Of a stretch of DNA of 64,000 nucleotides, positions 20,925-59,316 are shown piece after piece. The stretch is from Pseudohongiella sp. (GTDB lineage: Bacteria > Pseudomonadota > Gammaproteobacteria > Pseudomonadales > Pseudohongiellaceae). The translations under genes and the position numbers were made by a program. Position 1 is the first letter of the stretch. Every line of letters begins with the position of its first letter. Where the stretch lies: the NCBI RefSeq assembly GCF_011050365.1, contig NZ_DRFV01000003.1, positions 1 to 64,000 on the forward strand, in the 5' to 3' direction. The notes under the pieces are model-generated. The model was not told the origin of the DNA. It did no database searches and worked only from the letters and a program-made list of their open reading frames with translations.

Positions 20925-20985
20925 GCTGCATATCCTGCGGCCAGACGTGCCGGCGCTATGGTATTAAGAGTCAGGCCTGCGACTT

Positions 20986-22023: not shown

Positions 22024-22038
22024 GGTTTTGTCCTGCCT

Positions 22039-22971: not shown

Positions 22972-22974
22972 GGC

Positions 22975-25695: not shown

Positions 25696-26725
25696 TATAT
25701 GTCCTCGTCCGGGTTGCCAGATCAATCAACAGGGCTTCCAGCCGGCGCCAGTATTCGTCCTCCAGGTAGTTCTGTTTTTGATTGCGCAAAATGAAAATCT
25801 CGCGTTCGATCGACTGCATGTCTGCGCGCAACGCCTGTGCCTGCGGTGACGTTTTTTCTTCCTGCGGGACGATCACATCAAGATAGGCAATTTCGGCCAG
25901 CAGTCCGTCCGCCTGGTTCGGTCCCGGCTCCCGGGAAAAAAGCCCATCACCGGTATCATCAAGCACTGCATTCTCGGTGGCCAGTCGCCCCTGCTCTTCA
26001 TACCAGCCCGCTACACGTCCCCGGGCATAATTGAAGATTTCCAGCACGGACACGCGGGCGTTGCGGTCCAGGTCGGCGGTGTGGCTTTGCAGACCTTCGA
26101 TCAGATAGCCGGGGAATATCGGATCATAGCGCTCAGAGGGCGAGCGTGTCGCCGATACCACAACGCGCCCTAATGCTGACAACTCGCGCGAGAACTCAAA
26201 GCTGGCACTGGTCGTGTTGATCACTACGATATCCTGCTCGGAGAACCCGTCCAGCATCGCCGCCAGATCGGTGCCGGTCATGTCAGGGCCCACGTTATTG
26301 AATTTGGCTGCGCCAAAAGTGCCGGAACCGTGACCGATCATAAACAATGTCACCTGGTCCCCTGCCGATACCTCCTGTTGCAGGTTCGCTAATTCCGCAG
26401 CGATGTCGTCCGCACGGGAGCTGCCGCTGACAGCTAAACTTCCGGGGCTCTGGCCGGCATCAAACAGTACGCGGATGTTGCCACTGCTGTATCCGTAATC
26501 ATCCCTCAGGGTGTCATGCAGGTCCCGCGTCCAGCGCAGAAAGCGCTCAGCTATTGCGTCAGACGCCGCTGCGCCAGTGACGATCACCGCGTACTTTTCG
26601 GTATTGACACTTTGCTGAAACCACGGCGTGCTCTCGTCATCCGGCAACTGCGCCTGCAGAGACAATCCCGGTGACAATACCAGCAGCGCCGCCGCGCAAA
26701 CCTGGTAGACAAAACGCCAGTTCAT
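25682..26725 (-). CDS. Secreted caspase/legumain-like (clan CD) protein, probably lacking the catalytic Cys
   Basis: This encodes 347 residues. A signal peptide (to about SLQAQ) precedes an alpha/beta domain. It has KYAVIVTGAAASD as first strand and TLFMIGHGSG, whose His at about 131 matches the catalytic His of C13/C14 peptidases. The strand VVINTTSASFEFSREL follows at about 160-175. In active clan CD peptidases the nucleophile Cys sits at the end of this strand (as in DACxSG); here the position reads Asn-Thr-Thr-Ser, with no Cys. A C-terminal coiled coil follows (about 290-345). It may be a pseudo-enzyme or use Ser/Thr. It is joined to its neighbours by 4-bp and 14-bp overlaps. Confidence 0.72.
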   Translation of the reverse strand: MNWRFVYQVCAAALLVLSPGLSLQAQLPDDESTPWFQQSVNTEKYAVIVTGAAASDAIAERFLRWTRDLHDTLRDDYGYSSGNIRVLFDAGQSPGSLAVSGSSRADDIAAELANLQQEVSAGDQVTLFMIGHGSGTFGAAKFNNVGPDMTGTDLAAMLDGFSEQDIVVINTTSASFEFSRELSALGRVVVSATRSPSERYDPIFPGYLIEGLQSHTADLDRNARVSVLEIFNYARGRVAGWYEEQGRLATENAVLDDTGDGLFSREPGPNQADGLLAEIAYLDVIVPQEEKTSPQAQALRADMQSIEREIFILRNQKQNYLEDEYWRRLEALLIDLATRTRTYNALP

Positions 26726-29025: not shown

Positions 29026-29044
29026 TATGTTGGTGCTGAATCAG

Positions 29045-32000: not shown

Positions 32001-32680
32001 TGCATGCGGATATCGCCCGGCTCAACCACAATATTCATCTCTGCCGGTGGTTGAGCACTGTCTTCGACAGCCGGCAACGCAACTTCCTCGCCACCACGGA
32101 ACGGCCACAACAGTTGTCCGCCGGCGCGCAGCAAGGCATCGGAGCTGACAAAAGCGATCAGGGTTACCAGCGCCACGGCGCCGGCGGTAGCCAGTGTCAG
32201 GAGCGGCAACCGTACATCTGACACCTGCGCCAGTTGTTGCTGCTGCGCCTCAAGATGGACATCGGCATCAGCCCACAACTGACGCACGAACTGGACCGAC
32301 ACCCCCGCGTCTGCGGCTGACTTTTCATCACTGGAGAATTCCAGTGACGTTAACAAACGCTGCTCCAGATCCGGCATTCTGGATTCAACAAACCGCGCCA
32401 GTTGCCTGTCGTCGGCGCGCAGACGCCGCAATGCCGCTACGTAACGCCAAAGTAATAGCGCTGCGACGGCGCCGAAACAGATAAAAAGCAGGGTTTGCAA
32501 GACAGGTGAAGGGGGCAACCACAGGCTGACCACGCTCAGGGTCAACAGCAAGACCACGATGCCGGTCAGCATCAGGCTGGTCTGCTGCAACATGCTCAGC
32601 AGGCGTCGCCGGCGACGCACCGTGGACAGAGTCGCACGCAATTTTTCGATTGTGGTTTTTTCCAACTTGGACAACGACAT
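29045..32680 (-). CDS. DUF4175 membrane protein with long Gln-rich coiled coil
   Basis: The protein is about 1211 residues from the ATG at 32680; an upstream TTG at 32710 is less likely. Two helices near the N-terminus and a third at about residue 150 (LLTLATAGAVALVTLIAFVSS) anchor it. A beta-rich, presumably periplasmic region (about 190-500) is followed by two glycine runs (GGQQGGGGGGAGGGDS and GGGGGG). The last 600 residues are Gln/Glu/Arg-rich coiled coil, closing in a conserved helical C-terminus. This matches DUF4175. It is the first gene of the MoxR operon and probably its large structural subunit. Confidence 0.85.
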   Translation of the reverse strand: MSLSKLEKTTIEKLRATLSTVRRRRRLLSMLQQTSLMLTGIVVLLLTLSVVSLWLPPSPVLQTLLFICFGAVAALLLWRYVAALRRLRADDRQLARFVESRMPDLEQRLLTSLEFSSDEKSAADAGVSVQFVRQLWADADVHLEAQQQQLAQVSDVRLPLLTLATAGAVALVTLIAFVSSDALLRAGGQLLWPFRGGEEVALPAVEDSAQPPAEMNIVVEPGDIRMQRGREATIIVRIENASPEDVSLRMQTDQLNWYDVSMRRDGTGSDGAAFSYYMPAVEEDTEYYVSVEHDGEQRSRQYRISLYDLPRAEQIDVAYTFPEYTGIENYSEEDAGDMVVPEGTRVTLDLAFNKAVQQAQVVFDDDMTEPVSIDGISGTATFTVTSDTTYRILATDFDNLETEDPDVFYIRAIADQPPELALHSPGRDQDVMPLEEVVLEVEASDDYGLSEFTLHYSVVGRDEVAVDFLPPAQTRSIAGNQMIYMEDLTVQPGDFISYYMTLADNNGLDGAQSVVSDIYFLQVVPTDQEFRRASGGQQGGGGGGAGGGDSSALVTLQKDIISATWRLRQNQMELEPQQFADDVAVIAESQRDAVERAGMSIERLSERIDFADDTYANAVTFLRNAIAQMELAATELDEAALTSAMVPEQQALQLVLRAEAEINRTDVNFQRTAGGGGGGGAQQEREDLQELFDMEMGQNENRYETPRQASSGQNNSEEASRLEELARRQESLTRAQRDLSRRMEDMTEEQRRRELERLRREQEQLGNELAQLDQQMSRGQQQGQQSQQGQQGQSGAQQESQMQRALQQMQEAARAETPAQAAARSQRALESLREQQRQMDQQPGNSTNQLAQNLSERGQQLIQQQRQLQQALAQLGREQGVGQSREDVANNEDVQSLLNQQQRNRQELEELERMLRAVIARAGNDEQQLLSQAQQASRAIRPLREQMDTGNRVLRNGMVNLAVDIEQEVADALAELGQNLQALNPGTQSDGESGTEALMQAAADASALREQLESLQQEIDARAAGGQGDESISELRDRLSRSQALAEQLTRQLDQAREGAGQQGEAGSQQRGQQVAGQQPGQQPGAQQGQQAGGRGQRAGAGGQAATDQAGLGGAIPEPGEAALWGNARSISSDITEQSLEAFMSQPELLRGLLQPLVELESDLRARAELAQITRRLYAVSEEDIPDQYRRLVEAYYRALSENRSAVEPVE

Positions 32681-32881
32681 AGGCGGCTCTGCTGTTCGTG
32701 AATGAGTCAACGATAGCGCATGCAGTCGCTCTTTCCGTGAGCATTCCCTGGCTGTTGATCTGGTATCGCCTGTGACCTAACTATCCCATTAAGCGACCGG
32801 ACAACGCAAGCAAATCTGTCCGCGCCTGGTTTCCATCTGACGCATGCGGCTTATGTACTTTTCCGGCTGCCCCACGGTCGC

Positions 32882-42733: not shown

Positions 42734-43234
42734 TCAGGCCTTGGCAGTTTTGGCAGTAAACTCGTTCTTCAGGTCGTCTTTTACCTTGTCGACGTCAAAG
42801 TTCGACAGCGTGCCGCCACCTTCAAAGTGATTAACAAAAACTTTTCCCACCGCATACGTCGCCGCTGCACCCAGGGCACCCATGCTTACACCACCGGCAA
42901 AAGAACCCAGACCAGGGATAATCTTGACCGTTGTAAAAGCAAACGGCGCCGCAAGGCCTGCCGTTGTCAGTGTACCCAGCAGAGTTGCAACTGTGGTCTT
43001 GATGGCTTCCTGCTTAACAGTTTTACCGTAAAGACGTGTCAGATCGCTGACCATTTTTACCTGGACGGCAGCGAGCCCGGCAAGATCGACGTAAGGCACC
43101 GGTATGAAACCCGCCGCAGCGCTCCACTTGCATTTGTTGGAAATAATTGCTGACGCCTGGTCCAGGCGTTCCGCTTTCTCAGCCATTTGCGCTTCTGTCT
43201 CGGTATCGATGTCGGTTTCGGTCTTGGTAGCCAC
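42734..43234 (-). CDS. DUF697 family membrane-associated protein
   Basis: This encodes 166 residues from a GTG start with an AGGAG ribosome-binding site. A Thr/Glu-rich N-terminal tail precedes the DUF697 core, which has two hydrophobic hairpin segments. The first is SAAAGFIPVPYVDLAGLAAV; the second is the Gly/Ala-rich LGSFAGGVSMGALGAAATYAVG. DUF697 proteins are often fused to or beside GTPases or TerB-like proteins; neither is found here. Function is unknown. A strong hairpin follows the gene, so it is probably monocistronic. Confidence 0.75.
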   Translation of the reverse strand: MATKTETDIDTETEAQMAEKAERLDQASAIISNKCKWSAAAGFIPVPYVDLAGLAAVQVKMVSDLTRLYGKTVKQEAIKTTVATLLGTLTTAGLAAPFAFTTVKIIPGLGSFAGGVSMGALGAAATYAVGKVFVNHFEGGGTLSNFDVDKVKDDLKNEFTAKTAKA

Positions 43235-43405: not shown

Positions 43406-44326
43406 TTAAACCCGGGATTCAAGTTCTTTCTCTATTCGTGTAACGCCGGTTTCACTTGCTGCATTTTGAATGAATTGTGCGATCAGGGCAGCACTTTTAA
43501 CCGGATTATCCAGCATCACAGCATGCCCTGCCCTGGGCACAACAGAGAGTAAGCCGCGATCACCCAGCACCTGCACCATCTTCAATGCCAACGAATGCTC
43601 GAGAATCGACGATGCCTGACCACGAACTATGTGAACCGGCAGCGTAAGCGCACCAAGTGCTCTCCATAGCCGCACGCTCAACTCCCCTTTTTCCTTGTCC
43701 AGGCGCCGGAACTCCGGACTTTTATGCCAGATGCCGGGCGTGAAAGCCGGATCGGTCTTGGTCATGAGCCTGCCCCGCTTAACACGCAAGCCAAAACTGG
43801 CGAGACGGGCCAGCGCCTCGGTGTCCGCCATCACGTAAATACGCGCCAGACAATCAAGGTATGCCTGAACATCGGCGTGATGTTCAGGCAACTGCATGAC
43901 ATCATTGACCAGTCGTTCTCCTGCCTCCGGACTGACCTCCGGGCCGGCATCAACAATCGTGAGCGAGGTCACCGAATGATGCATTGATTCCAGTGCCAGA
44001 ATCGCTACTCTGGCACCCAGGGAATGACCCACGATATGCACTGTGGCATCGCCCAGACTTACCAGAAAGTCCTGCAAATCTTCGGCGAGCTGCCAGTGTG
44101 AATACTTCCGCGCCGGGTCCCAGTCCGAATCCCCATGCCCGCGCTGATCCAGCGCCAACACATGATGCTTCGCCTGCAACGCCCCGACCAGCCCATCCCA
44201 TACATGTGCATCGTTGGTAAAACCATGCAGCAGAATGCAATAGCTGGCACTTTCCGCTTGTGTGCAGGGATGGCTGAGGTAGTGTAACCGCAGGCCATCC
44301 CTGGCCCGGAAAAATCGACTTTGCAT
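43406..44326 (-). CDS. Alpha/beta hydrolase, last gene of the NRPS operon
   Basis: This encodes 306 residues without a signal peptide. Oxyanion loop LLHGFTNDAHVWD, DQRGHGDSDWDP, nucleophile elbow VGHSLGAR (Ser), acidic residue in IVDAGPE or the later loop, and catalytic His in PRAGHAVMLDNP are present. It begins 3 nt after the serine hydrolase stop, so it belongs to the NRPS operon. In that context it might act as an external thioesterase that releases or proofreads T-bound chains. It is longer than typical type II thioesterases (about 240 residues), and its sequence is closer to general esterases or epoxide hydrolases, so this role is only a hypothesis. Confidence 0.8.
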   Translation of the reverse strand: MQSRFFRARDGLRLHYLSHPCTQAESASYCILLHGFTNDAHVWDGLVGALQAKHHVLALDQRGHGDSDWDPARKYSHWQLAEDLQDFLVSLGDATVHIVGHSLGARVAILALESMHHSVTSLTIVDAGPEVSPEAGERLVNDVMQLPEHHADVQAYLDCLARIYVMADTEALARLASFGLRVKRGRLMTKTDPAFTPGIWHKSPEFRRLDKEKGELSVRLWRALGALTLPVHIVRGQASSILEHSLALKMVQVLGDRGLLSVVPRAGHAVMLDNPVKSAALIAQFIQNAASETGVTRIEKELESRV

Positions 44327-46473: not shown

Positions 46474-49400
46474 TCATACGCGCGCAAATTTGCGCCGCAC
46501 CCTTTCCCAGCAAGCCCGCATGGTACCGGACTCGAATACGACTGCAGACCATGCTACCTGTATTTCCAGTGCATTATCTACAACATAAAACTCCATATGC
46601 AACGGCACATCGACCGGAGACGTCGACGCCATCGCCCCGTCAAAAACCCTGCCCGTCAGCGTGTACAGATCGTCCGGGTGCTGACTGTTGGTAAATTCCC
46701 CAAGATAATTAAAGCTCACCAGCGCGGGCAATGCCTGGTGCAATTCAGCTTCGGCAGCCACGCAGGCAAACACATCCGGCTGCGACCGGGTATCGGCTTG
46801 CAAGGCCTGATGAGCGTGCTGCAGCGCGTCAGGCCCGGCAAAGAGTTGCGGCGCGAGATTGAGCAGCCGGGCACGTGTCAGCCAGGCGACCTGACGAGAC
46901 AAGTCCAGCGAGCCGTCACGGCCATGACTTTCCACCAACAGTGGAATTTCTTCAACTGGCAGCAGGCCGCCAAGCTCACTCAATGTTGTCGCCAGCAACA
47001 TGTCCTGCAACCTGAACTCGACCTGCTGTGCGGCAGACTGCCGGTGCAGGGATTCGCACAAAGCCGCCAGTTCATTAGCAGCAATTCGCAAATGCAGCGT
47101 GTGCAACTCATTGTGCAAGCCACAATCCGGCGCCAGCGCAGCCGTCGTTGCCACAGCTTTATGATACGCATCGGAAGCTGTCTGCTGTGCCGATAGCAGT
47201 TCCGCAGAACGCACATCTGCCACTTCCCGTAGTAAATGGGGTGGAGACAGACGGGCGAGCCCGGTCTCGCCTGCCAGCAAGGCCTGCGTCAGCGCGTTCA
47301 GGTCGGCAATCAGCGTGCGCAGTGAAACCCAGTCCGCGACAAGATGGTGCAACGCCAGCACCACCGACTCGCTGTCGCCATCAGGCCCCTGTACCAGGAT
47401 GCCACGAACCAGAGGCCCTGCTTCGAGTTCAAAGGGGCGACAGGCCAGTGCTTCGATAGCAGACTGGTCTGCCTGCAGGTCGGCGGAAGCGCCACGACGA
47501 TAGCAAGTGAGCACGTCAGCCAGGTTCAGCGTCTCCTGTATTTCCTGCAACCATTGTCCATCCAGCATATAAAAACGTGCACGCAGGGAGTCATGATGCT
47601 GTATCAACGCTGTCATGGCCTCCGCCAGCACGCTTTGCGACACCCCGGCGGTGACCTTCAATTCAGTAACAATGTGGAAATGCCGGGCCGCTTCAGTGCT
47701 TCTGGAACCCAGAAACCAGCGCTGCACCGGCAGCAACGCAACATCGCCGACAAGTGCTTCCCTGAAGTGCCCTGAATCCTGCCATGGTGTTAATGTACCG
47801 GCCATTTGCATCAATAGCGGAAACGCAAAGAAGTCTTTCAGCTCACAGGTATAGCCAGCTGCCCGGATGCCACTGAGCACCTCAAGCGCCTTGATTGAAT
47901 CGCCACCGAGGGTAAAGAAATCGTCATGGCACCCGACACGCTCCGCACCCAGCACACGACACCAGATTTGTGCCAGTACCCGCTCCGCATCCGTCGCGGG
48001 TGGGACAAACGCTGTGCCCGGTCCGGTGGCAAGCGCCAGCAGCGTGCCGCGCTCCACCTTGCCGGCGGCAGACAGCGGAAACCTATCCAGCAGCACCACC
48101 GAACCCGGCAGCATATGTCGGGGCAGGGATCTCCCCAGCGCCGCAATAATGGCAGACCTGAGTACATCGCGGGCGTCCTGCTCCCGCCCCGTCACGCAAT
48201 ACAGCAGCAGACCCAGCTGTGGATGTAATAGCGCCAGCGCATCATCGACGCCGTCCACCTGGCGCGCAGCATGTTCAATTTCGCCAGGTTCGATACGGTA
48301 ACCGCGGACCTTGAGCTGGGCGTCCACGCGCCCGGCAAATTCAAGCAGGCCGTCATCGCGCCAGCGTACAAGATCCCCGGAGCGGTACCAGCGACGCTGC
48401 AGGCCATCCGTCTGCGCAGCAACACTGAGCGTAGTGAATTTTTTTGCGCTAAGCTCGGCGGCGCCGTAATAACCCTGGCCCAACGTTTCGCCGCCAATGT
48501 ACAGCTCACCTGTCGCGCCCACAGGCACCCGCGAACCCGACGCATCGCGCACGGTCAACATGACTCCTGGCAGAGGCTTGCCTATGGGTACGCCAAAGGG
48601 CCATTCATCGTGCTCATTAACCCGGTAAACAGATGCGCACACAGAGGTCTCCGTCGGGCCATACGCATTCATTACGCGCAAGGTTTTTGCGTAATGCCGC
48701 AGATCCTCGCCAATAGCTGCATCACCTGCCGTCACCAGTACACGCAGCGCACCCAACGCTCGCTTGTCGAGTGCACGCAAAAATACCGGCGGCAAGGTGA
48801 TCACGGTGACTGCCTTTTTGTCCAGCCATTGCATGAAGATGTCGATGTCATTGCGCGCCGCATCCGGCGCAATTGCCAGCGATGCACCCGTGCCCAGCGC
48901 GAGAAACACTTCTGACAAAGAAGCATCAAAAGACAGTGCAGCAAATTGCGCACAGACGTCGTCGCCGTGCACGTCGAACGCCGGAATCTGTTGTCGGATC
49001 ATTGCCGAAAATGCCGCATGCGAAATCTGCACACCTTTGGGCTTGCCTGTCGAGCCGGAGGTGAAAATCATGTAAGCGATGGCGCGGGTATCCACGCTCA
49101 TGCCGCCCGCAGCACCCGGACCTGCCCCGCTTGCGTTATCCGCGTAACGAATATGCTGCAGATTCTGTTGCCGCTGCTGCAACTCGGCAGCCAGATCAGC
49201 TCCTTCCTGATCGGTGCTCAGCAGCATATCCACCGAACCTTCGCCAATAATCAGCAGCAGACGGTCCAGCGGATTGCTGAGATCCAGAGGTATATAAATG
49301 GCACCCGCCGCCATCGTTCCCAGCAGTGCCGCAACGCTGCGAACGCTGCGCCGGCCGATGACGCCGACGTGCACCTGTTTACGCACGGAACTCTTGCAGG

Positions 49401-52400
49401 AACGCTTGCCGGAACTCTTGCCAGAACTCTCACCGGCACTGTCGGCGGGCCGCGCCGCGTGCAACAGATTGGCGATGCGTTGCATTTCGCTTTCCAGCTC
49501 CGCATAAGACCAGTCACTGTCGGCATCGCTGATTCTGCCACTGGCATTGGCAGCAGCACGTCTGAATAGGTCCGGCAGCAGGTCTTGTTCGGCGTCAGAC
49601 CGCTGACTGAACAGAGCATCGCCTTCGAATGCCTGCACACATGCAGCGTCACTGTCATCCAGCCAGGGAATGTTCACCAGCGTTTCGCTGTGACTGCCGG
49701 TCAGGCCATTCAGCGTTTGCCCGAGACAGCGCAAAATCAATTCGATGTTGGCCCGGGAATAGATGACATTGTCGTATTCCGCAAGTAATCTCAGCCCCCC
49801 GTCCGCCGCCGGAAACGCGCTGACGGTAAGATCGTACTGGCTGGTGGTGGACGCAACCGGATGCACTTCGGCGACATGCGCGCCGAACCGGAGATCCTCT
49901 ACGTCGGTATTCTGCAGCACCAGCAACACATCAAAGAGTGGTGTTCTGCCCGGGTCCCTGACCAGATCCAGGTTTGCGACAATAGTGTCGAATGGCACAC
50001 CCTGATGTGAAAGACAGTCGTTTACTTCTGCCGCTACGGCAAGCAGGAATCTGTCCACCCGGTCATCCAGCGCCAGCGTGGCTCTGAGCGGCAGAATATT
50101 AACAAAAAAACCGATTACTGATTCGAGTTGAGGATGCCGCCTGCCGGCCACTGCGGTGCCTATACAGAAGTCCTGTTGCCCGCTGAGCCGGGCGAGCACG
50201 AGCTGCAGAGCAGCGAACAGGCCACTGAAATCACTGACGCCCATAGTGGACAGCTGGCGTGAAAAGCCAGTCCACACGGCTGGCTCAATGTCGATGTGAA
50301 CCGAAGCGCCTGCACTTTGCATCAGCGCCGGCCGCGGCCCTGAGGCCGGCAGTTGCAACACCTCTACCGGGCGAGCAAAGTGCTCCCGCCAGAACTGCAC
50401 GGCGTCAGCGCCGGCTTCCGACGCCAGCCAGTCGAGCTGCCAGCTGGCGAAATCCCGAAACTGCAGGCGATCTGCGGGGACACCGTCCGCGGCCTCATCC
50501 GGGCACTGATCTTCACTGAAGGTCTGATACAGTCGGGTGAGCTCTCTGGAGAATATCCCCATCGACCAGCCGTCACTGATAATGTGATGCATGGTGATAA
50601 AAAGCACACTGCCGCCGGATGTCAGTTCGCCAGCCGCAATGCGCACCAGCGGCGCCGTACTCAGATCGAAAGCCAGCCCGTTGAGTTCCTGCGCCGTCGC
50701 CTGCAAATCCGCTTCATTCAGCGCAGCCTCGAACCAGTACACGCGACTGTTTTGTGACGCATGGTCATTATTTGATGCCTGACTTGCTTGCCCGGAATCC
50801 GACAGTGGCGCGAGGGGCATCACCAGTTGTCTGACTCTGCCCCGGGCGTCCTCGCGGAAGCATGTACGCAGCGACTCGTGTCGCACCAACAGGGCATGCA
50901 ATGCGCTATCCAGCGCCCGGTGGTTGATACTGCCAGCGACCGTCAGCGTGGCATGCATGTGTAACGGCGAGGGGCCGGCAGCACGAAGCTGCTCCAGCAT
51001 CCACAACCTGGACTGGCCGGGCGAGACCGGGTAACTGTCTGCCTCGGGCAAGGCCTGCAAAACAGGTTCCGTCGCCGGCGTCCCATCGGCATTCAGAACG
51101 TTGACATCAATTGCTGCTGCCAGTTCGGTTAACGTTGGATTACTCTGCAAATCGCGGAAATCCAGCGTCAATCCGAAATGCGCGGCAATGCGCGAAAACA
51201 GCATCATGGCCTTCAGGCTGTGTCCGCCCAGATCGTGAAAGCTGTCTTCGCGGTAGATATCGGACTGCCCCAGTAGTTCACTAAAGAAGCCGGCCAGCGC
51301 CACCTCTGTCGCCGTCACCGGCAGTGTCCTTGCTGCGGCCTTGCTTGCAACGCGATCGGTCTGCTGAATGACGGCCTGATGCTGCAACTCATGCAGGATG
51401 GCCGCGCCGGAGTTCAGCGTGCTGGCAAGCTGTTGATAATAGCGGGACATGCTAGCGGACGATTGCCCGGCAGTTGTGCTGACTCGTGCTCTCTGGTGCG
51501 CATCAGGTGCTTCGCCGTGACCGGCGTCCGGAGGCGTCAGCGCCTGTGTTTCTGCGCTGTGTGCCGGCGCCACTGCACTGTCTTCGGCGCCCGGCTGCCA
51601 GTGCCCGGCATCGGACACCTCCAGACGGTATTGGCTGTCAGTGGTACCCTGCCGCAGCGCAAAAGGTGTGCTTGTGATGCTTTGCAGGAATTGCAGCGCC
51701 GGCGTATTACGCGCCAGTTTGACGAAATCCACACGCAGTGCCCCGACGCCGATAGCCTCAGCCTCCTGCGCAAGCTGGCGCAGGATGGTATGTTCCACAC
51801 CACGGCCCAGCACACGACAACTAAGCATAAAACCGAAAACGCTCCAGACATCAATGCCACGGCGAATGAAAACACTGCCGGTCAAACCATACTTTCCATA
51901 TTTGTCGGTCACACTGACACAACGAATATCGATGTCCGGCTCCTGCAGTAACGCGCCCAGTTCAGCCTCGGTATAGCGGATTCCGGTGGTATTGAACTGA
52001 TTCGTCCGCTGGGACAATTGCGCCACCCGCGGTAACTCGTCCTGCGCCAGCGTGTGCATGTCAACGCGGATATCCAGTGACAGCAGAAAATCGGCATAGC
52101 TAGCGGTTGTCTTTCTTACGCTGGCGCGTTGCAGCTCTTCGGCATACATGCGGGCGCGCGCTGTATCCTCACGCGTGGCAGCGCGGGCATCAAGCAACCA
52201 GAGGTGATTGAGGAAATCCTCGCGCTCCTGCGCCGGCGGCAACTGTATAGCCAGCACACCAGGACAGGCCGCAAGTACCTGTTCACACTCCAGCGGGCTG
52301 TCATCAATGAAGACGAAACTGTCAAGGCCCAGAGACAGATCTTCGGCCAGTGTCAGAATACTCTCCGACTTTGGTCGCCAGCCGGCACACACCCGCGTCA

Positions 52401-55400
52401 GGTGCGCCCAGTGCAAGGGCATATCGCGCTGTTCGAACACTGCGCGCACGTCGTCCTCGTTGTTCTTGGTCGCCAGGCAAATCAGCGCACCGGCTGCGCG
52501 CGCAGCCAGCAATTGTTGCTGCAGGCGGATATGCACCGCATCAAGGCGGATGCCGTCCACACCCTCTTCACCGACAATGCCACCCCATAGCGTGTCGTCG
52601 GCATCAACGATGTACACTTTGACCGGACGCCTGCCCTGCTGATCGCACAACCTTGCGAGTCTGTTTGCCAGCGCCGCAAAGAATTCCTCGGCATAAGGGA
52701 TATCGCCAAACACAAGTTCGGGGGGATAACAGACCTGCTTCAGGTCATAGGTATCGGCGAGATTTTCCAGACTCAACACTTCCGCATTGTGCATACCTGC
52801 GAGTGCATCAGCCGCATACGCAGTAAACTCAAGGTACAAGGCCCAGTCACCGTCCTGCGAATAACCGTTTTGTCCATAACAGTCGGGCCACGGGCAGGGC
52901 ACAAAGTACAGGCGGCTGTCCGGACAGGCGCGCGAATAGGTGACCAGCGCCGCAGTAAGCTCCGCCAACTGGTCGGCAGCGGTGGACGCCAGTACCTGAC
53001 CGTTTTCATCTGTGACCGGCCGCCACAGCACCACATGCTGCTGAGGATGCAGGCGTCTGAGTCGTGAGTCAGGATTGATCAGCTCCTGCACACTCTGATC
53101 GTATGGCAGCTGCGTGACGGCCCCGGAATGGCCACTGACATATTCGTGATACTGTAGCAGCCCGATAAGGCTGTCCGCCGTAAAATTCGCGGAGACAGTC
53201 CAGCCTGCTGCCGCGTCCTGAGCCAGCGCAGCAGGCGACTGCTGGCCGTCCAGCAAGGCAGCGAGCAAAGCGCACAGATCTGTGCCCATGGCGTGCAGCC
53301 TGTCCTCTAGATACAGACTGCCATCGGCGACAAACCGGAAGCTGAGGTCCTTTGCCAGCGGTGCCACGATCAGGCCAAATTCGAAGTGCATTGGATCGAA
53401 TATTTCCTGCGGCTGCCATTGCCAGCGCGCCGCGTCTGCATCAGACACAGGGTAGTTTTCAAACACCAGCGCGTGTGTCACCAGGCCGGCGCGGGCTGGT
53501 GTCAGCGTCTGAATTTCCGCCAGCGTCAGGTGGCCAAAACTCATGCTATCGGCAAATTGTTGCGCAGTTTCGCGTACCTGTTCAGCGAACGTCGCCGCAT
53601 TGGCTGTCTGAATGCGCACAGGCAAGGTATTGATCAGCATGCCTGCGATGGCGCCGACACCGGCGAGATCAATGTCGCGCCCGGCTACGGTGGCACCAAA
53701 CACCACGTCATCGCTGCCGGTCAGGCGGCCCAGATAGACGCCCCACAATGTCTGAACAACGGCGTTAAGCGTGAGTCCCTGCTGCTCACACCAGCTTAAC
53801 AGTCTGGCATGCAAGGCTTCCCCGGTACGAGTTTCGACAAACAGCGGACTCGGTTCATCGGCGGGTAGTCGCGGCAGATGCGTAGGCACGTCACTGCGGC
53901 TTTGATAATCACCCAGTAACTGCTGCCAGTAGTCGCGCGCCCGCACCGGCGACTGCCGGCCCAGCCACTGGAAATACGCCCGCATGCCGTTGGCCGCGTT
54001 GCCGTCACCGCCACGGGCCTCGCCAAAATACAGCGCTTCCAGCCGTTGCAGCAATAACGCGCTGGTCCAGCCATCGAGCGCCATATGATGGAAATCGATG
54101 ATGAGCTCAAAACAGTCCGCGTTAATAAAGACCAGCGTGAGACTGAACAGAGGGTCATGTAACAGATCACGTGGCCTGCTGCGCAACGTCGCGCGCAGGC
54201 GGGAAAGTTCATCCTCGTGCCGGTCGTTAGCAACACCCGTGTCGACAGAGTTGTCGATATACTGATAATTTCCCGACCGTTCACAAAAGACGATCTGCAG
54301 CAGGTCGCCACTCGTCGTCTGCGCAAACCCGGTTCTCAGCGCCTGGGTTTCCGCAACCAGGGCCTGCACGGCGGCGGCGAACCGTTGTTCATCAAGTGGC
54401 TGCTGCAGACGCAGGGCAACCTGGTCCTGATAGGCTGTCGGGTGGGTCGCACAATGCAGCCACATGCCCGCCTGCATCCCAGTCAGTGGCAATATTTCTT
54501 CGACGCCGGCGGCAGGCAATTGCAACGCCGCAAGCGTGGCGTCAAGCTCGGCGAGCGACGCAAAAGCAACCAGGCTGTCGGACAGCGAGAGCAGGCACTG
54601 ATCTGTGTCACTGTCATCCCTATTGCCAGTCGACAGAGCCTGCAAACGGGTTAGCAGCGCGCCAAGCTCAGTACGCCAGGCGGCGGCGAGCGCAGCAAGA
54701 CCCGCTGACGAGTGCGGATTCTGACCACGCAGCATCAGTTCCAGCTGGCCATCGGTGATTCGCGCCAGCACGTCGAGTCTGAAGGGTTCAACGACAGCGT
54801 CACCATGATCATTGCCGGCTGGCTCATTTGCCGGAGCCAGCCAGACATCCTGATCCGTGCCGCTCTCGCCCAGATAATTGAAGCTCAGCTGCGGTCGCAG
54901 GGTCAGCGTCTGCCGCACGTCATCGTCTTTATAGAAACGCAGTGGCAGATAACTGAAACCTTTGGCCGGCAGCCGCCTGATGCTGTCCTTCACTTCGCGG
55001 TAAAGATCAAGCTGCGATTTATCGCCACCGGCAAACACAAAGGGATACAGCGAGGTGAACCAGCCCAACGTCGAACTGCAATCACCGAGACCATCAACTG
55101 CTTCCCGGCCATGACCCTCCAGCGATAAAACGCAGCCAGCATGAGTCAGCGTGCTCTGCCAGGCGCGGATGAAAGCCGCCAGCAATACTTCCTGCGGCGT
55201 CATGCGGAGCAGCGTTGCGCTGAGCTGCAGCAGCGTCCGGGTCTCGCGCTGTGGCATTGTGTGTACTGCGCTGTCGCGCTGTATCTGTTCATCGGCAAAC
55301 AGTTGTTGTTGTCCGGCAATAATCTGTTTGCCGTGAGCGACGACCTCCTGCCAGTAGCCAAGATCACGATCCAGTGCGCCGTTTGCCACCGCCGCCTGTA

Positions 55401-58400
55401 ATTGCGCGGACCAATTGATGATGCCAAGTGCTTCACGGACTGGATTCCGGGCAGTGCTGGTTGCGTCGATGTGCCCTTCAGGCGTCGCTGTGCCGCGCTG
55501 CGCGGCCAGATGGCGTTGATACAGGCGCTCAAGGTTCTGGGCAAACAGACGCCCGGACACTTCATCTGCAGCAAGATGATGAACCACCACCGCCAGATAG
55601 CTGGTATCGGCCTCCGCTGCTACGCCGACCGCGAGCAGCACCCCAGCTTGCAGGTCTATGGCCTGTTGCAGTTCCAGCCAGCACTGCTGGCGAGACTGCC
55701 CCGCCTCGACGGTTCGCAACACATAACTGCCGGTACCTCTTATGCTTTGCACTTGGGTATCAGCATCGAGCGTCAGGCGCAGAGCCGGGTGTAATTCCAT
55801 TAGCTCGTCGAGCACCCTGCGCAGGACGTTGAGGTCAACGGGTTCGGCGATCCTGAACACGCTGGACAGATTAAAATGATCAACAGGTGGGCCGCATTGC
55901 TCCAGCCACCAATGCTGGGTAGGGCTCAGCGGCCCGGATTGCAACGCTTCTTCACTCGCGACAACGGCTGTCACCGCCGCCGTCGCGGCGAGGCCGGCGA
56001 GCGTCTCCGAGGCAAAAATATCTTTCAGCGTGAAGTGATAACCGCTGGCACGGGCCTGCGACACCAGCTGAATGGCGCGGATCGAATCGCCGCCCAGGGA
56101 AAAGAAGTTCGCCTCGCGATCTATCGTCAGTGCGGCACTTCCTGTCAGCCCGAGCACCGCGGCATACAGGCTCGCCAGATCCTGTTCCGCTTTTCCGTGC
56201 AGTTGCCCGGCAGGCGTATCGCCGGTATCCGTATCTTCCGGCAATGGCAGCGCGTTGACGTCGACTTTGCCACTGGCGTTTAGCGGCAGACGTTCAATGT
56301 GCACGATTTTCGCGGGCAACATGTAATTCGCCACGCTGCCTTTTAATGCCTCACGCACCACCCCGACTGTGCTGCCGATTGCGCCTGGCCCCACCAGCCA
56401 GGCCACCAGCTCACTGCTGCCCGCCGCGCCGCGTGCCTGCACAAATGCATCCAGGACGCCGGGCAAGGACCGCAAGTGGTGTTCCACCTCACCGAGTTCA
56501 ACGCGGAAACCGCGTATCTTCACCTGCCTGTCGTTGCGGCCCAGAAACACCAGTTCACGATTGTGGTTCCATTTGGCGATATCGCCCGTCCGGTAAAGCC
56601 TGCCGGCACCGGCTGGCAGAAAAGGGTCCGCCAGGAAAGCGGCAGACTGGTCGCTGCGCCCGGCATCCTGCGGTGTCAGGTAACCACGCGCGATGCCGTC
56701 GCCGCCGCACACTATTTCTCCCGGTACGCCGATGGGCACGGGGCGCATATCGGGGTCCAGCAGATAAATGCGGCTATTGGCAATCGGCCTGCCTATGGGG
56801 ATGGTTGCCAGTGCCAGGTCATCCACGGCAACCCGGTGCCAGGTGGAAAAGGTGGTGTTTTCAGTAGGACCGTACACGTGCAGTAATTTTAAACCATGCT
56901 GCCGCTGCAGTATTTTCCTGACGTGCTCGACGGAGATTTTTTCGCCACCGGTGAGCACGGTTTGCAGTCGATCAAACGCCCCGGCACTGTTATCAACCAG
57001 CTGGTTGAACAGCCCCGTGGTCAAAAAGGCAGTATCAATCCGGTAATGCTCCACCAGCGTGTGAAATTCATGTACTTCAAGCAATGTCGTGCCAGCCGGA
57101 ATACAGACACAGCCGCCGTTCAGCAATGCGCCCCAGATTTCAAAGGTGGCCGCATCGAAGGCCAGCGAGCCCGTCAACAAAACGCGCTCGTTTGCCCGGA
57201 CCTGATGATAATCTGTATTGCACACCAGCCTGAGCACGGAGCGCTGTTCGATCAGCGTTCCTTTGGGTATGCCGGTTGAGCCGGAGGTAAACATCAGATA
57301 GGCCGGCTCCGGAACTGCATCAGCCGTTGTTTTGCCAGCGTCGCTTCGCAACGGCAGTACCTTGCCGGCGATGTTTGAAGCCGTCGCCACGCCTGCCTCG
57401 CCAGAAATGAGCAAGGCATCGGTATCAAGCAATGTCACATCCAGTTGCTGAAGCGCCGGAATGCGTTCAGTCTCCGCAAACAGCAGCGGCACTTCACCTG
57501 CTGCAATCACGTCACCGATCCGCTCCACGGGCGTATTGGCGGCCAGCGGCACGTAAACGCAACGGCTTTTCAGAATGGCGAGTATCACGATCAGAGCGCG
57601 TTCATCTTTTTCCAGCATCAGCGCGATGTGACGACCCGGCTGATGTGCCGGATGCTGCAACAGCATTTGCGCCAGTTGCCCGGATCGCTGATCCAGTTCA
57701 AGGTAGCTAAGCTGCGCATCCCCGGCATGCACTGCGATTGCGTCGGGACTACGCTGCACGACCTTGCGGAACTCCTCGACAAGCGAAGAATCCTGCGGAT
57801 ATGGCCTTGCGGTCGCGTTCACCTGCTCCAGCAATAAACGCTGATCTGACTCGCTCTGCAGTGCCAATTCACCCATCGGGCGTGTCGGATGCCGTGGTAG
57901 CGCACCGGCCAGTAAGCGCCAGGCATCACACAATCGCCGGGCGGTCGCGTGAAGGATCACGCTGGTGGCATACTCCAGATCAAGTCGCAGGCTGCCATCG
58001 CTCTGCTTCTCAACATGAAAGGTCAGATCCACCTTGCTGTAGGCCTGCGGTATTCGCAGTGACCGACCCACGCTGTCATGTCCGGCGCCGTCGCTGAAGC
58101 TCAGCGCCAGGTCGTCCGCCGCCGTGAACCCAAGCATGACGTCATACAATGGTGACCGGCTCGGGTCTTTGGCGAACCCAAGCTCCGTTACCAGTTCATC
58201 GAACGCCAGGCCCTGATGCTGGAAGCCCTCCAGCACGCGGCGACGTACCTGCGTCAGCAGTTCCGGGAAAGTCTGCTTGCGATCCACAGCCTGACGCAGC
58301 GCAATGGTGTTGACGAACGGGCCCACGACCTTGTCAAACTGCGCGCCGGGGCGACCGGCCACCGGCGTTCCCAGAGTGACTTCACCGACATTGGCAAAAC

Positions 58401-59316
58401 GTGCCAATAGCAGTTGCACCAGCGCCACCAGTCCCATGGTCAACGTAGCATTGTGTGTATGGCAGAGGGTCTCGAACGCAGCAGCATCCGACGCTGGCAG
58501 CGTTGCCGTAACAGAACTGCCGCGAAAATCCTTGCTCACCGGCCGCGGCAGGTCCAGCAAGGCATCGAGTGTTTCCGGCGCGCTGGAGAAAACGTTTTTC
58601 CAGTATGCCCTCGCCTTGCCGGTATCCGCACGGCGTTCGTGGTCAACAAAATCCCGGTATTGCAGCGCTGCCGGCGCCGCTTGATCACCGGCAATCGCAG
58701 GGCCTGCGACCAGCGTATCGTCCTCGTAGTACTGCGCCAGCTCCCATACCATATGGGTAATCGACAGGCCATCGCAGACGCTGTGATGAATGACCACAAC
58801 AAGCCCCGTCTGCCCGGCATCCGCCGCGCAATAAATCACCCTGAGCAACCAGTCCTGTTGCAGATCAAACGGCCGGACAGCTTCGGCGCTGGCCAGTTGC
58901 TGGAGCTGTGTTGCCACGTCCTGCTCAGGAACCAGCGTATGCTGCTGCAGTGTCCACCCGCCAACAGCGCGCGGAACCTGGAACAATTCGTCGTCCTGCT
59001 GAACGAAAGAGGAACAAAGCACTTCGTGGTTGGCCAGCAGCCTGCGCCAGGCACGCTGTAGTCGCTCCCGATCCAGACCCCTGTCGAAAGTAAATGCAGA
59101 GGCAATATTATAGGCGGCACTGGCTTCACTACCGAGCTGAGACAAAAGCCAAAGACGGCGCTGTGCCAGACTCAGCGGATAACGCGAGCCGGCGGGCGGG
59201 CGCCCCTGTTGCTGACCCCGCTGTTCACGCAACCGGGCAATCTGCTGCACCAGCGCCGTGCGCTGTTCGGGCGACAGTTTTTCCAGACGTGTTTTGAGTG
59301 CCGCATTGTTGTCCAC
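46474..59316 (-). CDS. Non-ribosomal peptide synthetase, C-A-T-E / C-FkbH-T / C-A-T-E, no thioesterase
   Basis: This encodes 4280 residues from a GTG start 2 nt after the upstream NRPS stop. Domains, with approximate residues: C1 30-480 (HHSVCDG at 177). A1 495-1015 (YLMFTSGSTG at 672); its pocket residues read DAFFLGVTFK, as for Ile. T1 (GGDSIRA, 1078). E1 1100-1550 (HHLAADEVS 1245, EGHGRE 1399, FNYLGES 1479). C2 1590-2030 (HHMALDGW 1743). A full FkbH domain 2040-2565 (DADDTLWGG 2237, SCRVLGRG 2496). T2 (GGHSLKA, 2699). C3 2760-3200 (HHIISDGW 2909). A2 3240-3755 (MIFTSGSTG 3415); pocket DASTVAAVCK, as for Tyr. T3 (GGDSIKA, 3806). Terminal E2 to the end (HHLVADWVS 3990, ESHGRDG 4128, FNYLGEF 4203). 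T domains before E domains read GGDS, the others GGHS, which supports the assignment. The second module has no A domain: FkbH enzymes load a glyceryl unit from 1,3-bisphosphoglycerate onto a carrier. No TE or reductase domain follows. Confidence 0.95.
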   Translation of the reverse strand: MDNNAALKTRLEKLSPEQRTALVQQIARLREQRGQQQGRPPAGSRYPLSLAQRRLWLLSQLGSEASAAYNIASAFTFDRGLDRERLQRAWRRLLANHEVLCSSFVQQDDELFQVPRAVGGWTLQQHTLVPEQDVATQLQQLASAEAVRPFDLQQDWLLRVIYCAADAGQTGLVVVIHHSVCDGLSITHMVWELAQYYEDDTLVAGPAIAGDQAAPAALQYRDFVDHERRADTGKARAYWKNVFSSAPETLDALLDLPRPVSKDFRGSSVTATLPASDAAAFETLCHTHNATLTMGLVALVQLLLARFANVGEVTLGTPVAGRPGAQFDKVVGPFVNTIALRQAVDRKQTFPELLTQVRRRVLEGFQHQGLAFDELVTELGFAKDPSRSPLYDVMLGFTAADDLALSFSDGAGHDSVGRSLRIPQAYSKVDLTFHVEKQSDGSLRLDLEYATSVILHATARRLCDAWRLLAGALPRHPTRPMGELALQSESDQRLLLEQVNATARPYPQDSSLVEEFRKVVQRSPDAIAVHAGDAQLSYLELDQRSGQLAQMLLQHPAHQPGRHIALMLEKDERALIVILAILKSRCVYVPLAANTPVERIGDVIAAGEVPLLFAETERIPALQQLDVTLLDTDALLISGEAGVATASNIAGKVLPLRSDAGKTTADAVPEPAYLMFTSGSTGIPKGTLIEQRSVLRLVCNTDYHQVRANERVLLTGSLAFDAATFEIWGALLNGGCVCIPAGTTLLEVHEFHTLVEHYRIDTAFLTTGLFNQLVDNSAGAFDRLQTVLTGGEKISVEHVRKILQRQHGLKLLHVYGPTENTTFSTWHRVAVDDLALATIPIGRPIANSRIYLLDPDMRPVPIGVPGEIVCGGDGIARGYLTPQDAGRSDQSAAFLADPFLPAGAGRLYRTGDIAKWNHNRELVFLGRNDRQVKIRGFRVELGEVEHHLRSLPGVLDAFVQARGAAGSSELVAWLVGPGAIGSTVGVVREALKGSVANYMLPAKIVHIERLPLNASGKVDVNALPLPEDTDTGDTPAGQLHGKAEQDLASLYAAVLGLTGSAALTIDREANFFSLGGDSIRAIQLVSQARASGYHFTLKDIFASETLAGLAATAAVTAVVASEEALQSGPLSPTQHWWLEQCGPPVDHFNLSSVFRIAEPVDLNVLRRVLDELMELHPALRLTLDADTQVQSIRGTGSYVLRTVEAGQSRQQCWLELQQAIDLQAGVLLAVGVAAEADTSYLAVVVHHLAADEVSGRLFAQNLERLYQRHLAAQRGTATPEGHIDATSTARNPVREALGIINWSAQLQAAVANGALDRDLGYWQEVVAHGKQIIAGQQQLFADEQIQRDSAVHTMPQRETRTLLQLSATLLRMTPQEVLLAAFIRAWQSTLTHAGCVLSLEGHGREAVDGLGDCSSTLGWFTSLYPFVFAGGDKSQLDLYREVKDSIRRLPAKGFSYLPLRFYKDDDVRQTLTLRPQLSFNYLGESGTDQDVWLAPANEPAGNDHGDAVVEPFRLDVLARITDGQLELMLRGQNPHSSAGLAALAAAWRTELGALLTRLQALSTGNRDDSDTDQCLLSLSDSLVAFASLAELDATLAALQLPAAGVEEILPLTGMQAGMWLHCATHPTAYQDQVALRLQQPLDEQRFAAAVQALVAETQALRTGFAQTTSGDLLQIVFCERSGNYQYIDNSVDTGVANDRHEDELSRLRATLRSRPRDLLHDPLFSLTLVFINADCFELIIDFHHMALDGWTSALLLQRLEALYFGEARGGDGNAANGMRAYFQWLGRQSPVRARDYWQQLLGDYQSRSDVPTHLPRLPADEPSPLFVETRTGEALHARLLSWCEQQGLTLNAVVQTLWGVYLGRLTGSDDVVFGATVAGRDIDLAGVGAIAGMLINTLPVRIQTANAATFAEQVRETAQQFADSMSFGHLTLAEIQTLTPARAGLVTHALVFENYPVSDADAARWQWQPQEIFDPMHFEFGLIVAPLAKDLSFRFVADGSLYLEDRLHAMGTDLCALLAALLDGQQSPAALAQDAAAGWTVSANFTADSLIGLLQYHEYVSGHSGAVTQLPYDQSVQELINPDSRLRRLHPQQHVVLWRPVTDENGQVLASTAADQLAELTAALVTYSRACPDSRLYFVPCPWPDCYGQNGYSQDGDWALYLEFTAYAADALAGMHNAEVLSLENLADTYDLKQVCYPPELVFGDIPYAEEFFAALANRLARLCDQQGRRPVKVYIVDADDTLWGGIVGEEGVDGIRLDAVHIRLQQQLLAARAAGALICLATKNNEDDVRAVFEQRDMPLHWAHLTRVCAGWRPKSESILTLAEDLSLGLDSFVFIDDSPLECEQVLAACPGVLAIQLPPAQEREDFLNHLWLLDARAATREDTARARMYAEELQRASVRKTTASYADFLLSLDIRVDMHTLAQDELPRVAQLSQRTNQFNTTGIRYTEAELGALLQEPDIDIRCVSVTDKYGKYGLTGSVFIRRGIDVWSVFGFMLSCRVLGRGVEHTILRQLAQEAEAIGVGALRVDFVKLARNTPALQFLQSITSTPFALRQGTTDSQYRLEVSDAGHWQPGAEDSAVAPAHSAETQALTPPDAGHGEAPDAHQRARVSTTAGQSSASMSRYYQQLASTLNSGAAILHELQHQAVIQQTDRVASKAAARTLPVTATEVALAGFFSELLGQSDIYREDSFHDLGGHSLKAMMLFSRIAAHFGLTLDFRDLQSNPTLTELAAAIDVNVLNADGTPATEPVLQALPEADSYPVSPGQSRLWMLEQLRAAGPSPLHMHATLTVAGSINHRALDSALHALLVRHESLRTCFREDARGRVRQLVMPLAPLSDSGQASQASNNDHASQNSRVYWFEAALNEADLQATAQELNGLAFDLSTAPLVRIAAGELTSGGSVLFITMHHIISDGWSMGIFSRELTRLYQTFSEDQCPDEAADGVPADRLQFRDFASWQLDWLASEAGADAVQFWREHFARPVEVLQLPASGPRPALMQSAGASVHIDIEPAVWTGFSRQLSTMGVSDFSGLFAALQLVLARLSGQQDFCIGTAVAGRRHPQLESVIGFFVNILPLRATLALDDRVDRFLLAVAAEVNDCLSHQGVPFDTIVANLDLVRDPGRTPLFDVLLVLQNTDVEDLRFGAHVAEVHPVASTTSQYDLTVSAFPAADGGLRLLAEYDNVIYSRANIELILRCLGQTLNGLTGSHSETLVNIPWLDDSDAACVQAFEGDALFSQRSDAEQDLLPDLFRRAAANASGRISDADSDWSYAELESEMQRIANLLHAARPADSAGESSGKSSGKRSCKSSVRKQVHVGVIGRRSVRSVAALLGTMAAGAIYIPLDLSNPLDRLLLIIGEGSVDMLLSTDQEGADLAAELQQRQQNLQHIRYADNASGAGPGAAGGMSVDTRAIAYMIFTSGSTGKPKGVQISHAAFSAMIRQQIPAFDVHGDDVCAQFAALSFDASLSEVFLALGTGASLAIAPDAARNDIDIFMQWLDKKAVTVITLPPVFLRALDKRALGALRVLVTAGDAAIGEDLRHYAKTLRVMNAYGPTETSVCASVYRVNEHDEWPFGVPIGKPLPGVMLTVRDASGSRVPVGATGELYIGGETLGQGYYGAAELSAKKFTTLSVAAQTDGLQRRWYRSGDLVRWRDDGLLEFAGRVDAQLKVRGYRIEPGEIEHAARQVDGVDDALALLHPQLGLLLYCVTGREQDARDVLRSAIIAALGRSLPRHMLPGSVVLLDRFPLSAAGKVERGTLLALATGPGTAFVPPATDAERVLAQIWCRVLGAERVGCHDDFFTLGGDSIKALEVLSGIRAAGYTCELKDFFAFPLLMQMAGTLTPWQDSGHFREALVGDVALLPVQRWFLGSRSTEAARHFHIVTELKVTAGVSQSVLAEAMTALIQHHDSLRARFYMLDGQWLQEIQETLNLADVLTCYRRGASADLQADQSAIEALACRPFELEAGPLVRGILVQGPDGDSESVVLALHHLVADWVSLRTLIADLNALTQALLAGETGLARLSPPHLLREVADVRSAELLSAQQTASDAYHKAVATTAALAPDCGLHNELHTLHLRIAANELAALCESLHRQSAAQQVEFRLQDMLLATTLSELGGLLPVEEIPLLVESHGRDGSLDLSRQVAWLTRARLLNLAPQLFAGPDALQHAHQALQADTRSQPDVFACVAAEAELHQALPALVSFNYLGEFTNSQHPDDLYTLTGRVFDGAMASTSPVDVPLHMEFYVVDNALEIQVAWSAVVFESGTMRACWERVRRKFARV
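49387..49446. repeat. 12-bp minisatellite inside the Tyr A domain, encoding a Ser/Lys-rich insert
   Basis: Four copies of a GGAACTCTTGCC-like 12-mer (49387-49398, 49399-49410, 49411-49422, 49423-49434) and a fifth degenerate one keep the frame. They encode GESSGKSSGKRSCKSS on the minus strand. The insert falls in a surface loop between the first helix of the A domain (IANLLHAARP) and the strand VHVGVIGRR, where a few residues are usual. It is an in-frame expansion. Confidence 0.8.
51620..53200 (-). other. FkbH-like glyceryl-transferase/phosphatase domain embedded in the NRPS
   Basis: This is residues about 2040-2565 of the 46474-59316 NRPS. The order is that of full-length FkbH proteins. An SGNH-like N-terminal part (HVVLWRPVTDENGQV, LYFVPCPWPD) comes first. 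A HAD part follows with the nucleophile motif VYIVDADDTLWGGIVGEEG, LICLATKNNEDDV and DSFVFIDDSPLECEQV. A C-terminal part has LSQRTNQFNTTGIRYTE and FMLSCRVLGRGVEHTIL. The conserved Cys of the SCRV segment is a candidate for the glyceryl-carrying residue reported for FkbH-type enzymes. It sits between a C domain with intact HHxxxDG and a T domain, where an A domain would normally be. Confidence 0.92.

Follow-up and report, generated by a model that had tools for sequence, protein, structure and literature searches.

The window analysed here, 64,000 nucleotides of a Pseudohongiella sp. genome of 3.63 Mb (the first 64 kb of contig C3), carries a nonribosomal peptide synthetase (NRPS) gene in which an FkbH domain stands in place of an adenylation domain. 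The gene lies on the minus strand at 46474–59316, as do all further window features given below, and is one open frame of 12.8 kb encoding 4,280 amino acids. Profiles and trees give the domain order C-A-T-E-C-FkbH-T-C-A-T-E (C, condensation; A, adenylation; T, carrier; E, epimerization); Pfam detected five condensation-family, two AMP-binding and three carrier stretches, to which NCBIfam added one FkbH domain. The first module consists of C1 (57832–59184), A1 (56257–57771), T1 (GGDS, 55987–56169) and the epimerization domain E1 (HHLAAD and FNYLGE, 54577–55941). It is followed by C2 (53182–54504), which is proposed to form an ester, a putative N-terminal extension of FkbH (NEX-like, residues about 2055–2228, 52633–53154), the FkbH core with its HAD phosphatase and acyltransferase parts (51673–52623) and T2 (51106–51300), the proposed glyceryl carrier. 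The last module is formed by C3 (49660–51042), A2 (48022–49602), T3 (GGDS, 47797–47979) and a terminal E2 (46477–47742), with which the frame stops; Pfam gave no thioesterase match after this last E on the 4,280-residue protein.

An earlier note on this DNA had described a condensation domain, a complete FkbH domain and a carrier domain in place of an A domain, located after a D-Ile module and before a Tyr module. The motifs were found where they had been placed (HHMALDG at residue 1743, within an intact HHMALDGW, DADDTLWGG at 2238, SCRVLGR at 2499 and GGHSL at 2697), and domain profiles found no A domain between C2 and T2. The flanking modules also agree, as E1 is present and the A-domain codes, which here and below were read by hand with known position rules, are Ile/Val-like for A1 (DAFLLGVTF(K)) and Tyr-like for A2 (DASTVAAVC(K)). 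The span assigned to the module covered C2 and FkbH but ended at 51620 and left out T2, although a T domain was part of the description, and the FkbH domain is complete with regard to its core, to which the N-terminal extension has to be added.

The FkbH core was matched by TIGR01686 at residues 2232–2548 with 285.1 bits (cut-off 146.65). An alignment of FkbH domains from the collected loci (107 domains, 81 after contained copies were dropped) shows an identity of 90% or more in 34 columns; the window carries the common letter in 34 of 34, including D2238, D2240, T2242, N2285, K2316, D2338, D2339, R2430, Q2440, C2500 and R2501. The HAD motifs and the SCR cysteine, to which we presume the catalytic roles belong, are intact, and the loss of catalytic residues that the earlier note had considered was not found. 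Chance motif matches were ruled out by the profile score together with the conservation in relatives.

Sequence constraint on the domain was assessed against four relatives, which are referred to by genome number. In the comparison with G012, the FkbH core had a ratio of nonsynonymous to synonymous substitution rates (dN/dS) of 0.067, and the values of C2, A1 and the linker that follows FkbH were 0.114, 0.121 and 0.358; compared with G002, G007 and G053, the core gave 0.070–0.086. The FkbH core had the lowest dN among the large domains in four of four comparisons, with some short T domains lower; in the three comparisons with G002, G007 and G053, part of the other domains had reached saturation in dS. 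Those active-site letters of C2, FkbH and C3 that were checked are identical across the five species compared.

The cluster around the NRPS gene holds two FkbH enzymes, one embedded in the NRPS and one stand-alone. In the FkbH tree, the 14 stand-alone rows form one group on a long branch (support 100/100), and the grouping of all 20 NRPS-embedded rows is weak (77/100) with eight other rows inside. An origin of the embedded domain as a recent copy of the stand-alone FkbH of the cluster was ruled out, as both forms lie far apart in this tree.

FkbH was present in 12 of 95 genomes, own genome included. NRPS-embedded FkbH was found in eight of 59 genomes of the family Pseudohongiellaceae, again counting the own genome, and in six of 15 genomes of the genus, and the same eight family genomes also have a stand-alone FkbH. 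The full domain order is seen in the window, G002, G007, G012, G014 and G053, and contig ends cut the synthetases of G005 and G039; tree placement identified the last domain as E only in the window, G007 and G053, and it is a weak match in the other relatives. The A-domain code before FkbH is identical in all six full-order genomes, and the only difference in the code after FkbH is V or I at one position. A scan with two narrow peptide patterns identified relatives of the region at six loci, in three Pseudohongiella metagenome-assembled genomes and three unclassified gammaproteobacterial ones.

An internal C-FkbH-T module between a C-A-T-E module and a Tyr-like C-A-T-E module is the arrangement of a cystomanamide-type synthetase. 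The cystomanamide synthetase (ctm) was reportedly described from Cystobacter fuscus by Etzbach in 2014. According to the published account, it is organised as (C-A-PCP-E)1-(C-C-A-PCP)2-(C-A-PCP-E)3-(C-fkbH-PCP)4-(C-A-PCP-E-TE)5 (PCP, peptidyl carrier protein; TE, thioesterase) and yields Asn-Asn-Phe-GA-Tyr (GA, glyceric acid) with a 3-amino-9-methyldecanoyl chain (PMC9581180). It resembles the window cluster in core order and probably in the GA-Tyr end, and the suggestion of the earlier note that no well-described example has this order does not hold (PMC9581180). The two differ in the residues before GA, which are Asn-Asn-Phe in cystomanamide, whereas the codes of the window cluster are unassigned, Thr-like and Ile/Val-like. 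Cystomanamide synthetase further has a TE after the last E and a second C in module 2, both of which are lacking in the window cluster, and its 3-amino fatty acyl chain (PMC9581180) may have a counterpart in the window cluster, whose preceding NRPS contains an aminotransferase domain (PF00202).

Vioprolide is made with a C-FkbH-T module that gives an ester to glycerate (PMC8949500, PMC10099666), but this module is the second one, after a fatty acyl-AMP ligase (FAAL) and an acyl carrier protein (ACP), and uses a fatty acyl donor, whereas the window module follows an NRPS module with E. Corramycin and vioprolide share the order FAAL-ACP-C-HAD-T, so that the corramycin module is C-FkbH-T as in the window but is module 2 after FAAL-ACP, and its glycerate is proposed to be methylated (PMC10099666). 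In a synthetase predicted from Flavobacterium sp. Leaf82, an FkbH-like domain replaces A in module 5 of 7, with a SulM-type TE (PMC11298585). The aeruginosin-type pathways of suomilide, dysinosin and varlaxin likewise have FkbH in an NRPS protein and incorporate glycerate, but at the loading position, unlike the window (PMC8609519, PMC6520454, PMC10143770). Judged by these architectures, a C-FkbH-T module inside a peptide line is already known from cystomanamide, vioprolide and corramycin, and the window is not new in kind; the earlier note, which placed FkbH enzymes in stand-alone proteins or at polyketide loading sites, has to be corrected on this point. The present analysis adds the grouping of C2, the recurrence of the arrangement in distant Pseudomonadota and a PF00144 hydrolase gene as neighbour. 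Among five papers listed for gene clusters of the genus, no title or abstract reported such a product.

The preceding NRPS gene, P0005 (59319–63998 in the window; contig C3 59319–69209), has the order ACP-aminotransferase-C-A-T-E-C-A-T, and the window holds the end of its E followed by C-A-T. A tree was built from 79 C and E domains, with the window, G007 and G053 as the only Pseudohongiellaceae rows and with G520 and G524 left out. In it, C2 of these three genomes grouped with the C domain of P0005 that follows E (support 99/90), as is expected for a C domain that accepts a D-configured donor. Next to this group are the pre-FkbH C domains of five distant synthetases (G269 on contig C75, G495, G501, G578 and G541; 96/79). 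The set of 20 rows to which all of these belong has support of 98/92 and does not include C1 or C3. C2 thus looks like a D-donor C domain within the limits of this tree, in which one Rhodococcus E domain was misplaced and for which the program warned of long branches.

Several points weigh against the assignment of C2 and its proposed function. The after-E reference is one C type in two rows, both from this type of cluster, which weakens the D-donor label, and ten of the 20 rows in the set of C2 are plasmid NRPS C domains that do not follow E. Of the ester-forming C domains that have been characterised, most are reported to belong to the LCL type (PMC12304814), and the tree was built without any of those named there; the C-domain tree proposed in the earlier note sets C2 apart from C1 and C3 and beside an after-E domain. 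Finally, the predicted structure (five sequences, mean pLDDT 52.2) was too poor for use.

The best reading, and a likely one, is an elongation module with FkbH in place of the A domain that would make glyceryl-T2, to which C2 would form an ester, in a cystomanamide-like hybrid polyketide synthase (PKS)/NRPS lipopeptide line. This mechanism is favoured by the FkbH score and the fully kept conserved columns, the low dN, the conservation among relatives, the GA-Tyr end of cystomanamide, the ester of vioprolide and the placement of C2. Beyond the window, P0006 (KS-AT) and P0011 (AMP-ligase-ACP-KS-AT-DH-KR-ACP) lie upstream of P0005. The acyl-AMP ligase (FAAL by own reading) would start a fatty acid, and two PKS modules and the aminotransferase domain would turn it into a 3-amino, perhaps 2-hydroxy, acyl chain. 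The following modules would add a D-residue, Thr and D-Ile/Val; the first A domain of the cluster has the code DAILTAEVV in the window cluster, for which no residue was called (I or L at one position across five genomes), and the A domain in the window part of P0005 is Thr-like (DFWNVGMVH(K); V or I at one position across five species). FkbH would then take D-1,3-bisphosphoglycerate, remove the phosphate and load glyceryl onto T2, C2 would join the D-Ile/Val carbonyl to a glyceryl hydroxyl as an ester, C3 would couple the glyceryl carbonyl to the Tyr amine as an amide, and E2 would convert Tyr to D-Tyr. With no TE domain behind the final E, the chain could be released by P0004, an alpha/beta hydrolase (43406–44326), by a glyceryl hydroxyl or by an enzyme acting in trans. 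A module of this kind would place an ester at a predictable point within a peptide chain, which would be useful for engineering.

FkbH loads lactyl in bryostatin, and the identity of the acid is not fixed by the sequence alone. Loading of another three-carbon acid such as lactyl, or a later methylation of the glycerate as proposed for the glyceryl unit of corramycin by a C-methylating radical-SAM enzyme (PMC10099666), is nevertheless improbable, as no methyltransferase family was among the Pfam matches of the NRPS and the cystomanamide counterpart at the same place gives GA (PMC9581180). Modules that are skipped do exist in NRPS lines, but an inactive or skipped FkbH module with direct passage of the chain from T1 to the Tyr module is most unlikely here, because the FkbH core and C2 are constrained, none of the five species compared deviates at the active-site positions checked in C2, FkbH and C3, and the module pair recurs in distant genomes.

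This recurrence came from wider searches of 369 and 398 genomes. Complete C-FkbH-T-C-A-T-E proteins of 2,614–2,766 amino acids were found in G269 (C75), G495, G520, G501 and G578, and truncated ones in G524 and G541. The last A domain is Tyr-like in all five complete proteins. By domain profile and A-domain code, C-FkbH-T-C-A(Tyr-like)-T-E is thus a recurring arrangement among distant Pseudomonadota, and the search for C-FkbH-PCP architectures that the earlier note had proposed returned them both in family relatives and in these distant genomes.

Pre-FkbH C domains of another kind were also found. Those of G125 and of a second contig of G269 (C133), which follow ACPs, are placed next to the post-FkbH C domain of the same synthetase (100/100) and far from C2, and the counterparts in G687 and G470 occupy yet other positions. 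This scatter rules out a single origin of all C-FkbH pairs, which have thus arisen repeatedly. The layout in G125 (L069 73–13899) is KS-KR-five ACPs-C-FkbH-T-C-A-T plus a final domain placed among the E domains, and its pre-FkbH C is of different origin; the one on C133 of G269 (L070 3476–12850) resembles it and is split into two frames.

Directly after the NRPS gene lies P0003 (44330–46552), a beta-lactamase-family (PF00144) serine hydrolase with a signal-like N-terminus and the motifs SATK, YSN and HRG. Its listed ATG overlaps the NRPS end, and the true start may be the ATG of MKTFS, about 38 codons further. In ten aligned homologues, SxxK and YSN are kept throughout and the third motif is HRG or HPG. 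A signal-like hydrophobic segment was over threshold in six of the ten (window, G014, G007, G053, G501 and G269); the homologues of G002, G012 and G495 are below threshold although similar on visual inspection, and G520 is represented by a fragment. Visual inspection also shows a cysteine after the signal-like segment in the hydrolases of G495 and G501, which are lipoprotein-like in this respect. P0003 is thus probably secreted. Its best matches in the PDB are D-alanyl-D-alanine carboxypeptidases (R61), an alkaline D-peptidase and a D-amino acid amidase, and the colibactin-pathway peptidase ClbP also matches.

A PF00144 gene stands beside the synthetase at 13 of 15 loci; at 11 of them it shares a contig with the FkbH domain, and at two the locus is split across contigs. 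The count leaves out the large-frame FkbH proteins of G687, G470, G104, G098, G123, G267 and G373 as fragments or other architectures. Within Pseudohongiellaceae it adjoins the synthetase in eight of eight genomes (in G005 at the NRPS end on a split contig), each of which has 11–21 PF00144 matches. In G269, G495, G520 and G501, the adjoining gene is the sole PF00144 gene found in the genome, and in G524 the sole one adjoins the A-T-E end on another contig. No PF00144 gene was found in G578 and G541, whose genomes are 77% and 84% complete and whose synthetases lie at or about 0.4 kb from a contig end. Around the synthetases of G125 (C18) and G269 (C133), whose pre-FkbH C is of the other kind, the stretches read also gave none, and the single PF00144 gene of each of these genomes is on another contig.

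The neighbourhood of the hydrolase gene, which is the only one of its family in five genomes, suggests that a tail may be cut off after export. Tentatively, glyceryl-D-Tyr might be such a detachable tail, joined through an ester by a D-donor C domain and cut at the ester or the D-residue by a secreted S12-type serine hydrolase. A secreted hydrolase for D-residues would fit an ester between a D-residue and glycerate. Cystomanamide A is described as lacking GA and Tyr, which are both present in cystomanamide B (PMC9581180), as if it had been cut there, and in vioprolide the fatty acid is removed hydrolytically (PMC10099666). If this were true, FkbH modules would serve generally to introduce a cleavable joint into nonribosomal products, the lack of GA and Tyr in cystomanamide A would be explained and the beta-lactamase-family gene would be given a role. 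The gene set for such a tail would be common to distant Pseudomonadota, several of which also have the SPFH, DUF697 and hydroxymalonyl-ACP genes described below. Titles and abstract openings in the literature gave no C-FkbH-T together with a PF00144 hydrolase, in a coverage that most subscription papers fall outside.

It is also conceivable, if doubtful, that P0003 provides self-protection or has a general function in peptidoglycan turnover or synthesis and is only carried along with the cluster. Its closest matches of known structure are DD-peptidases, and the SPFH and DUF697 genes might be protective, but a general role is unlikely for a gene that is the sole PF00144 member in G269, G495, G520, G501 and G524. 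SurE of surugamide is a thioesterase of the penicillin-binding protein (PBP) type. An analogous task of P0003 in trans, as a release enzyme rather than a maturation enzyme, would suit a line that ends in E without TE and an enzyme of the beta-lactamase family; it is unlikely, since the signal-like segment was over threshold in six of ten homologues, including the window, and a secreted enzyme, if the predicted export is correct, cannot reach a carrier-bound chain.

Further genes accompany the cluster. Stand-alone FkbH (P0007), an acyl-CoA dehydrogenase, an ACP and a 3-hydroxyacyl-CoA dehydrogenase (to P0010) are encoded at contig C3 72229–75614 (L003 14230–17615), outside the window, and would make hydroxymalonyl-ACP, as FkbH, ACP and the two dehydrogenases are all present. 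The order P0010–P0007 equals that of bafAI–bafAIV of bafilomycin (PMC3679948), and two FkbH proteins in one cluster, as here, are described for tetromadurin (PMC7489565). Compared with fkbHIJK-type extender operons, no O-methyltransferase gene was seen among the cluster genes read, and the operon concerns the PKS part and not the NRPS module. Further upstream, an SPFH protein is encoded, followed by an ABC exporter and a phosphopantetheinyl transferase (own reading of open reading frames).

In the genus, the DUF697 protein (42734–43234) and the SPFH gene, which lies beyond the window at L004 5588–6592, are confined to cluster-bearing genomes. Together with P0003, they were found in exactly the six cluster-bearing genus genomes and in none of the nine without the cluster, two of which are 85% and 72% complete (cut-offs 1e-60 for P0003, 1e-10 for DUF697 and 1e-30 for SPFH). 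This distribution shows cluster membership and not function, because linked genes travel together. SPFH and DUF697 homologues also occur in the stretches of four of the seven distant synthetases (G495, G520, G524 and G541), three of which, all but G541, hold the hydroxymalonyl-ACP genes as well; Pfam confirmed the members of the gene set in G495 and the SPFH protein of G524. None of these genes was seen in the stretches read of G269 (C75), G501 and G578; a stand-alone FkbH is encoded on other contigs in the latter two.

Among plasmids, tblastn gave no C-FkbH NRPS by feature names among the matches listed (40 of 118 and 60 of 2,554 records), and the best plasmid FkbH match among them was an exopolysaccharide locus. 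Divergent FkbH domains were seen in frames of 2,067–2,082 amino acids in G373, G267 and G123 (L050, L052 and L053), which are small gammaproteobacterial genomes of 1.4–1.6 Mb; in G267 (L113) the order is FkbH-C-A. Elsewhere in the window, the genes at 17922–32710 (BatA/VWA, DUF58, MoxR-type AAA, DUF4159, TPR and DUF4175) read as an ordinary MoxR/Bat-type operon.

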